In this document: positions 7,050-33,598 of the stretch, piece by piece | How the letters are laid out: the number at the start of each line of letters is the position of its first letter | How positions within the stretch are numbered: the stretch's first letter is position 1 | Source of the DNA: Tissierellia bacterium | GTDB taxonomy: Bacteria; Bacillota; Clostridia; Tissierellales; Peptoniphilaceae | Length of the DNA: 62,882 nucleotides | Assembly: GCA_030540635.1 (NCBI GenBank) | Contig: JAUNVW010000005.1 | Location: 1 to 62,882, forward strand | Direction: 5' to 3' | Made by a program: the position numbers and the translations under genes | The notes under the pieces: generated by a model | What the model was told of the DNA's origin: nothing | The model's input: the letters and a program-made list of their open reading frames with translations, nothing else | Database searches by the model: none

Positions 7050-7314
7050 AACGAATAAATTACCGAGGACTGAGAGTAGTAAAATACTAGAAAGATAGCC
7101 AGAGAGCTTCGGCAGGTGGAATGAAGCCTATCGGAAGTATTTGAATGGACTCATAGGTAGCGAGGGGGAAAATAGAGTATCCCTTGCCGGGAGCTCCCGT
7201 TATCGAGCTAGGATATCGGAATTTTCCCGTATCCAAAAAGATAGAATTTTCTATAATTCTAAAAAGGATGGTACCGCGAACCCACCGTTTGCTCCTTGAG
7301 CAAGCGGTTTTTTT
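7050..7314 (+). promoter_or_regulatory. T-box riboswitch (Trp), trpP leader
   Basis: The T-box sequence AAGGATGGTACCGCGA is at 7264-7279. The terminator stem CCGTTTGCTC/GAGCAAGCGG (7285-7294 with 7298-7307) and seven T follow. The specifier loop reads GAA-TGG-A at 7143-7149, so the codon is TGG (7146-7148), Trp. This agrees with the gene downstream being a tryptophan transporter. A strand-wide open frame through the leader is chance. Confidence 0.93.
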
Positions 7315-32065: not shown

Positions 32066-32171
32066 TCCATTTCATCAAAAGGTATATTTATCGAAAATTA
32101 CAGGATAAGAAAGGTTTTGTAGTTTTAAAATTGATGTAAATATAGTATAATATATCAATGAGGTGATGGTG

Positions 32172-33356
32172 TTGAAACAAATGATGAAAAGAATAGTCCC
32201 GCTGATTATGGCGATCCTTCTCTTGATTCCCCAGTCTTCAATGGCTGCCATTGGCATTGAGAAAAGTGTCCATGCCTATTATGTTGGCGAACAGGAAAGC
32301 GGACAAGAATTTTTAAATCATAACGGAGATGAAGTACTACCCATCGCTTCCATTACAAAGATTATGACCTATATGATTGTAAAAGATGCAATACAAGCCG
32401 GTACAATTGGAGAAATGGATCCGGTAACTATTACCGAAGATGTAGAACAAACTCCAGGATCGAGTATGGAATTGAAAAATGAAGAAATTGTAACGGTACA
32501 AGAGCTCATCCGTGGATTGATTATTGTCTCTGCGAATGATGCGGCAGTTGCCCTGGCTAAACATGTCGCGGGAACAGAACAAAATTTTATCCCATTGATG
32601 GAACAGAAGGCAGAAGAACTTGGCCTTAGAAATTATCACTTTTACAATGCCTCGGGATATCCCTTTGATGGTGTTGATAATCTGTTAAGCGCAAAAGATG
32701 TGTTTAAAATGACGAAATATTGTTTGGATAATTATCCTGAGATTTTAACAATAGCACAAGAACCGGCGCTGGATATGCCTGCCCGTAATTATCGTAAAGA
32801 CACCACAATACCTTTAGTGGGGGAAATGAAAGGTGTCGATGGTTTAAAAACAGGTACAACAGATGCTGCTGGCCACTGCTTGGTCTCTACCTTTACCGTT
32901 TTTGACGATGAAGGAAATGATGCTTTTCGAGGAATTTCTGTGGTATTAGGAACAGAATCTAAAGATATGAGAAATAAAGTAGCACGATATATTATTGAAT
33001 ATGTCCAGAAGAATTTTCGTTATCGAGAAATCCTCGATCCAAATATCCCCTATAAAAAATGGGCGGAAAATTCGGTGAAAAATGGCTATATTGAAGTATA
33101 TCCAGAGGAAGAACTCGTTCTTCTTATCAATAAAGAAACCGGCATTATACGGCGAGATTACCTCGATGAAAACAAGAAAGCACCGATAAAAAAAGGGGAA
33201 ATATTAGGTGAACTTACCATTGAACCGGTGGGCCTACCGATACATCAAATTAATTTAGTAACGAAAGAAAATTATGAATTAGCCGATACAAAAACAAGAC
33301 TCCAAAGATTATCTTCTTATATCTTTGAGATATTCCGTACAATGCTCTATATATAA
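32172..33356 (+). CDS. D-alanyl-D-alanine carboxypeptidase (DacF-like, S11)
   Basis: This low-molecular-weight penicillin-binding protein trims peptidoglycan stem peptides outside the cell. The 394 residues have a signal peptide (MKQMMKRIVPLIMAILLLIP), catalytic ASITK (SxxK), SANDAA (SxN) and GLKTGTT (KTG), then a C-terminal beta domain and a final amphipathic anchor (SSYIFEIFRTMLYI). The start is TTG at 32172, spaced 6 bases from GAGGTG; ATG/GTG codons just before overlap that site. TATAAT at 32146-32151 is the likely -10. The tRNA-Arg gene starts 20 bases after its stop. Confidence 0.94.
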   Translation: MKQMMKRIVPLIMAILLLIPQSSMAAIGIEKSVHAYYVGEQESGQEFLNHNGDEVLPIASITKIMTYMIVKDAIQAGTIGEMDPVTITEDVEQTPGSSMELKNEEIVTVQELIRGLIIVSANDAAVALAKHVAGTEQNFIPLMEQKAEELGLRNYHFYNASGYPFDGVDNLLSAKDVFKMTKYCLDNYPEILTIAQEPALDMPARNYRKDTTIPLVGEMKGVDGLKTGTTDAAGHCLVSTFTVFDDEGNDAFRGISVVLGTESKDMRNKVARYIIEYVQKNFRYREILDPNIPYKKWAENSVKNGYIEVYPEEELVLLINKETGIIRRDYLDENKKAPIKKGEILGELTIEPVGLPIHQINLVTKENYELADTKTRLQRLSSYIFEIFRTMLYI

Positions 33357-33358
33357 TA

Positions 33359-33473
33359 TTGGGATAATCCCCTTTTGCCCCCATAATTAAGTTGGATATA
33401 ATACTCCCCTCCTAAGGGAGATTCACTGGTTCGAGTCCGGTTGGGGGTGCCAAATGATCTGGGGATTACCCAA
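33359..33473 (+). other. Inverted repeat enclosing tRNA-Arg
   Basis: TTGGGATAATCCCC (33359-33372) is complementary to GGGGATTACCCAA (33461-33473) with one bulged base, giving 13 base pairs. The tRNA lies in between, 4 bases after the first arm and 8 bases before the second. The transcript could form a tRNA held in a long helix, as in precursors cut by RNase III-type enzymes. The second arm touches the terminator that starts at 33472. Confidence 0.8.
33377..33452 (+). tRNA. tRNA-Arg(CCU)
   Basis: This 76-base cloverleaf has CCA encoded. Acceptor arm GCCCCCA pairs with TGGGGGT (one G-U at the end); anticodon stem CTCCC/GGGAG with loop CTCCTAA gives anticodon CCT (reads AGG); T-arm ACTGG-TTCGAGT-CCGGT is normal. 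The D-stem is ATTA/TAAT, only A-U pairs, and the common G10 is A, which is unusual. D-loop GG and T54-T55-C56 are kept, so the tRNA is probably functional. Confidence 0.92.
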
Positions 33474-33500
33474 AAGATCCGAGAAATCGGATCTTTTTTT
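33472..33500 (+). terminator. Terminator after tRNA-Arg
   Basis: AAAAGATCCGA-GAAA-TCGGATCTTTT (33472-33497) and further T. Confidence 0.92.
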
Positions 33501-33538: not shown

Positions 33539-33567
33539 TTGACAAGGATTCAATAAGGTCCTATAAT
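33539..33567 (+). promoter_or_regulatory. Promoter of hrcA-grpE-dnaK
   Basis: TTGACA (33539-33544), 17 bases, TATAAT (33562-33567): full consensus. The CIRCE operator starts 5 bases later and covers the start site. Confidence 0.93.
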
Positions 33568-33571
33568 GGTA

Positions 33572-33598
33572 TTAGCACTCGAGGAGAGTGAGTGCTAA
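33572..33598 (+). promoter_or_regulatory. CIRCE operator (HrcA binding site)
   Basis: TTAGCACTC (33572-33580), nine bases, GAGTGCTAA (33590-33598): the perfect CIRCE inverted repeat. HrcA should bind here and block its own operon until heat stress titrates its chaperone helper GroEL. Confidence 0.97.

Follow-up and report, generated by a model that had tools for sequence, protein, structure and literature searches.

The tRNA-Arg(CCU) gene studied here lies directly downstream of dacF, and its leader and trailer pair with each other in a 13-bp helix that closes around the tRNA. We propose that this helix is a split version of the stem that related genomes carry at the same junction, and that it may guard the end of the dacF mRNA once the tRNA has been cut out of the common transcript. 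As a whole, we give this reading a probability of roughly 0.36. The parts of it that are supported by sequence are the co-transcription of dacF and the tRNA, the recurrence of a stem at their junction, the helix itself, the gene order and the absence of a promoter for the tRNA.

The dacF-tRNA-Arg(CCU) locus

The window, that is the whole stretch of 62,882 nt that we analysed, comes from a draft genome of 1.3 Mb (69% complete) in which 31 tRNA genes were found and whose closest matches within the family are Miniphocaeibacter, Lagierella and Mediannikoviicoccus. With names taken from reading the translations, the gene order on the + strand is serS-like, dacF, tRNA-Arg(CCU), a terminator and hrcA-grpE-dnaK-dnaJ. 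The upstream cistron is an open reading frame for a dacF-type D-alanyl-D-alanine carboxypeptidase (32163-33356, + strand), closed by a TAA at 33354-33356. The tRNA gene, with its CCA encoded, follows on the same strand after 20 nt (33377-33452; ARAGORN, and 56.7 bits with the Rfam tRNA model). At 33472-33497 (+ strand), an 11-bp stem containing GC pairs and followed by a T-run (-13.9 kcal/mol) has the make-up of an intrinsic terminator common to dacF and the tRNA. We rejected an antiterminator switch in which 33456-33479 would pair at the expense of this terminator, the alternative hairpin having a predicted probability below 1e-5.

Downstream of the terminator, the hrcA-grpE-dnaK-dnaJ genes have a strong promoter of their own. 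A consensus TTGACA-17-TATAAT is followed by a CIRCE-like inverted repeat read by eye, TTAGCACTC-N9-GAGTGCTAA (window 33539-33598), and the arrangement is ordinary heat-shock operon control. Elsewhere in the window, at 7057-7299, there is a T-box leader (Rfam RF00230, 100.5 bits).

Probable read-through from dacF

The tRNA-Arg(CCU) is very probably excised from the dacF mRNA, because no locus of the family with a short spacer between the two genes has a promoter for the tRNA. In a consensus scan, the only kind of scan applied (12 points for both hexamers, one more for an extended -10, cut-off at least 10), none of 18 loci with spacers below 30 nt had a promoter-like site at 35 nt or less from the tRNA, as opposed to 22 of 29 with spacers of 30-130 nt (Fisher p 1e-7). 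The studied locus falls in the first kind, and the same consensus scan found no site scoring at least 10 in the 150 nt before its tRNA. Read-through from the carboxypeptidase gene, one of the options that the sequence-only reading had put forward, gains support from these 18 loci and from the synteny kept in the family, where tblastn placed dacF upstream of tRNA-Arg(CCU) at 57 of 93 distinct loci. In one genome (G017), tRNA-Arg(CCU) occurs twice, at a distance of about 1.5 kb and in both cases after its own copy of dacF (L182 671 and 2212); the pair seems to have been duplicated as a unit.

The alternative is that the tRNA has its own promoter at a TATAAT overlapping the dacF stop codon (33352-33357, + strand), the helix being then a by-product of a short leader. 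The hexamer is a perfect -10, and in four relatives (L136, L144, L194 and L199) the end of dacF contains TTGATT-16-TATAAT with a hairpin after it. However, the studied locus has no matching -35 at 16-18 nt, and its TATAAT stands 19 nt before the tRNA, as against approximately 8-13 nt for the other single tRNA genes of the genome. We therefore rejected this candidate as extremely doubtful, and the TATAAT is probably a non-working promoter. Furthermore, a transcript starting at 33364, which had been expected to preclude the helix, would retain 8 of the 13 pairs and is still predicted to form it (P 0.997).

Structure and statistics of the leader-trailer helix

The 5' arm TTGGGATAATCCCC (33359-33372, + strand) and the 3' arm GGGGATTACCCAA (33461-33473, + strand) form 13 Watson-Crick pairs with a single bulged A (A33364). 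The sequence-only reading had described these arms correctly. They stand 4 and 8 nt away from the mature ends of the tRNA, being linked to it by UUUU (33373-33376), which occupies positions N(-4) to N(-1) relative to the RNase P cut, and by AAUGAUCU (33453-33460), an unpaired stretch within which we would place the cut in the trailer. In the predicted fold, N(-1) to N(-4) and the CCA also stay unpaired when the helix is formed, and the terminator stacks on the 3' arm. The pairing probability of the helix is 0.999, whether the cloverleaf is fixed or free, and adding the helix to a fold with fixed cloverleaf and terminator brings the energy from -35.1 to -52.6 kcal/mol.

When the two 30-nt flanks were shuffled with their dinucleotides kept, 66 of 20,000 versions paired equally well, and 23 of 13,992 mismatched natural leader/trailer pairs matched the strength of the helix. 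The chance of such a helix is thus about 0.002-0.003 per tRNA and about 0.05-0.1 over the 31 tRNA genes of the genome; taken alone, these statistics are suggestive, not conclusive. At -21.0 kcal/mol, the helix is the second strongest among 153 distinct tRNA flank pairs of the family. The strongest belongs to tRNA-Asp(GTC) of the same genome, with approximately 21 bp, -25.5 kcal/mol and none of 20,000 shuffles reaching it. Across 158 tRNAs, we did not observe a family-wide excess of flanking helices.

The tRNA-Asp(GTC) helix directly abuts its tRNA (L092 1700-1850, minus strand; G000 C13:10569-10719). In two further genomes (G031 and G117), all four tRNA-Asp loci have a flanking helix of 10-13 bp with a different sequence. 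At these loci (L158 1580-1768, and likewise L157, L163 and L164), the tRNA-Asp is followed by a sequence of no known kind, with no Rfam match, and then by a second 3' half of tRNA-Asp, as if a small element had been inserted or the gene partly duplicated.

Conservation of the arms

Our comparison of the arms covered other genera; a congener was sought by DacF protein, which gave no match, and by tRNA pattern, which returned other genera only. Complementary arms conserved in relatives had been the criterion of the sequence-only reading, and in the other genera they are not conserved; the recurring feature is that this position holds a stem. In Miniphocaeibacter (G018), for example, the tRNA-Arg(CCU) is identical, while its flanks are unrelated and unpaired. 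The compensatory pairing that would mark an RNase III stem was not observed among these genera, in which the flanks were unrelated and unpaired.

This finding bears on the possibility that the helix is a processing stem of the rRNA kind, in which RNase III (or Mini-III) would cut both strands and free a short pre-tRNA from the dacF mRNA. The 13 bp with their small bulge do close around the tRNA, the same genome has the longer helix around tRNA-Asp(GTC), and the flanking helices at the four tRNA-Asp loci of G031 and G117 point the same way. Against this stand the lack of conservation of the arms, the junctions of relatives, which carry nothing longer than short local hairpins, and the fact that RNase P alone suffices to free a 5' end. 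Moreover, helices of 13 bp, as well as hairpins of 5-12 bp, are short substrates for RNase III. In the open-licence literature we found no precedent for RNase III processing of single bacterial tRNAs. We regard this explanation as unlikely.

Two other suggestions of the sequence-only reading were not supported. A link with a rare codon is not favoured by the frequency of AGG in the open reading frames of the window (5.3 per 1000 codons, vs 6.8 for AGA), and past mobility is not favoured by copies of the arms, which occur at chance level in both the window and the genome. Inverted repeats of a mobile element or an att site were likewise rejected, as repeats of the arms are not in excess and the neighbouring open reading frames are housekeeping genes.

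A stem recurs at the junction in relatives

A local hairpin was found at all 11 other loci with spacers of 15-29 nt, and at eight of these 11 its stem ends 3-5 nt before the tRNA, the corresponding distance for the studied helix being 4 nt. The studied locus is the sole one with a spacer of this length that has no such hairpin, and it is the one with a leader-trailer helix; its local leader hairpin is not significant (-3.9 kcal/mol, p 0.72). When significance was set at p <= 0.017 by shuffles of the last 32 nt of the spacer, 14 of 16 promoterless spacers of 10-60 nt had a significant hairpin, and these 14 belong to eight lineage groups, the sequences being unrelated between groups. The two others are the studied genome and L182_2212, for which a 45-nt window yields a longer hairpin (-15.0 kcal/mol). 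As controls, we took spacers of 16-50 nt between tRNAs: a hairpin was present in 6 of 65 outside the Arg(ACG) position and in 6 of 15 before tRNA-Arg(ACG). The excess over tRNA-tRNA spacers has a p of 2e-9 by locus, which is too small given the relatedness of the loci, and of 2e-6 with one entry per lineage; the hairpin groups and thresholds were set after inspection of the data, and all these figures are descriptive.

Regarding the Arg(ACG) position, several genera (L093, L094, L096, L102, L103 and L109) have a hairpin whose tail is rich in T in the Gly(GCC)-Arg(ACG) spacer, which precedes the last tRNA of its cluster. A hairpin can also be read in the source genome, over the full 41 nt of this spacer.

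The recurrence of the stem has to be weighed against chance, namely that short G/C-rich arms happen to match near one tRNA gene and have no role. The shuffles leave about 0.1 such helices expected over the 31 tRNA genes, the arms are conserved in no other genus, and flanking helices show no excess in the family. On the other hand, the helix occupies exactly the place of the stem found at all 11 comparable loci and stops equally far from the tRNA, and both of the strongest flank helices among the 153 belong to the source genome. A neutral pairing is, in our estimate, as improbable as a stem for RNase III.

In relatives, the stem at the junction is a short hairpin of about 5-12 bp. About half of these hairpins carry T-rich tails, with 6 T in the last 8 nt (L007, L025, L037, L040, L147 and L150), and such tails would fit a leaky dacF terminator that lowers the output of tRNA. 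At the studied locus, this role would fall to a hairpin of the first arm together with UUUU, and GGGATAATCCCC followed by TTTT can be read in this way. However, the hairpins of L180, L188, L038 and L182 have no T-run, so that several junction hairpins are not plain terminators; moreover, the local hairpin of the studied locus is weak, and its strong helix includes the trailer and therefore cannot act before the tRNA is made. We consider leaky termination very unlikely at this locus.

A possible clamp on the dacF mRNA

Under our preferred explanation, the split junction stem, we infer in which order the cuts are made, that the dacF mRNA is protected and that the split helix is equivalent to the hairpins of relatives. 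tRNA-Arg(CCU) would stand last, with no promoter of its own, in a dacF transcript ending at the terminator, and its excision by RNase P would strip the new 3' end of the dacF mRNA of the terminator hairpin. In relatives, where a small hairpin follows the dacF stop codon and precedes the tRNA, the cut mRNA would still end in a stem and a few nucleotides. In the studied genome, the leader would pair with the trailer instead. With RNase P cutting at 33376/33377 and the trailer being opened within the 8 nt of AAUGAUCU, the end of the dacF mRNA would stay clamped to the 3' arm and the terminator, and thus be shielded from 3' exonucleases. Until the cuts are made, this stem would keep the tRNA fold apart from the mRNA.

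The predicted cut products have an energy of -34.0 kcal/mol together and of -3.9 and -19.6 kcal/mol apart, so that about 10 kcal/mol favours their pairing. Against the clamp, the hairpins of relatives act in cis, whereas a clamp at the studied locus requires a trailer fragment that persists, and those hairpins of relatives with T-rich tails could be leaky terminators. A role of the flanking stem in processing, as had been suggested from the sequence, is counted among the supported parts of that earlier reading.

The stem might instead act as a brake on RNase P, delaying the excision of the tRNA so that the dacF mRNA is translated first, with a ribosome on the stop codon melting the 5' arm. Stem-loops in the leader, like pairing of the leader, are known anti-determinants of RNase P (PMC9433436), and the 5' arm begins 2 nt past the dacF stop codon. 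Nevertheless, neither N(-1) to N(-4) nor the CCA is paired in the helix, and spacers between tRNAs seldom carry a hairpin, although such timing could help there too. We find a brake distinctly improbable, placing it after RNase III and chance, which we rate as equal, and ahead of leaky termination and, last, an own promoter.

At three loci of one genus (L003 1445-1504, L015 1442-1501 and L018 1442-1501, in G031, G117 and G116, respectively), the dacF frame ends ...AAT ATA TAT TAG, and the G of the TAG is nucleotide 1 of tRNA-Arg(CCU). Judging from the sequence, cleavage by RNase P at these loci would leave a dacF mRNA without a complete stop codon.

A broader reading, which we put forward as speculative and unlikely, is that in this family of small-genome Clostridia the 3' ends of dacF mRNAs may be made by RNase P and not by termination, and that caps for them may have evolved repeatedly. 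The cap would mostly be a hairpin; in the studied genome it would be the clamp, and in the Lagierella/Mediannikoviicoccus type a stop codon ending on nucleotide 1 of the tRNA. This last arrangement would make DacF synthesis and tRNA excision alternatives, since cutting out the tRNA destroys the overlapping stop codon.

The junction raises a question that is rarely asked, namely how an mRNA is protected when its 3' end arises from the excision of a tRNA. It offers a natural series at one conserved place (no spacer, a spacer with a hairpin, a leader-trailer clamp, and a terminator with a promoter), which makes this question testable in culturable relatives.

Comparison with known systems

In E. 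coli, a stem-loop in the leader of valV is an anti-determinant of RNase P (PMC9433436). The likeness to the studied locus lies in a secondary structure in the tRNA leader near the cleavage site; here, by contrast, leader and trailer form a helix together, in which neither N(-1) to N(-4) nor the CCA takes part, and this helix stands behind a protein gene.

The helices formed by rRNA leaders and trailers and cut by RNase III are similar in enclosing a stable RNA, to be excised, between a paired leader and trailer. In contrast to them, the stem around tRNA-Arg(CCU) has only 13 bp, encloses one tRNA in the transcript of a protein gene and has arms that are not conserved, and its cutting by RNase III is hypothetical.

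The E. coli secG-leuU transcript, which joins a protein gene and a tRNA, is reportedly processed by RNase P. As at our locus, the tRNA comes directly after the protein gene (14 nt there) and the terminator right after the tRNA, although gene and tRNA are others, the secG-leuU spacer has no hairpin on reading and no flanking helix was noted. With a tRNA on the same strand 20 nt after dacF and no separate promoter for it in the consensus scan, the studied locus shares these two features with a dicistron of the secG-leuU type.
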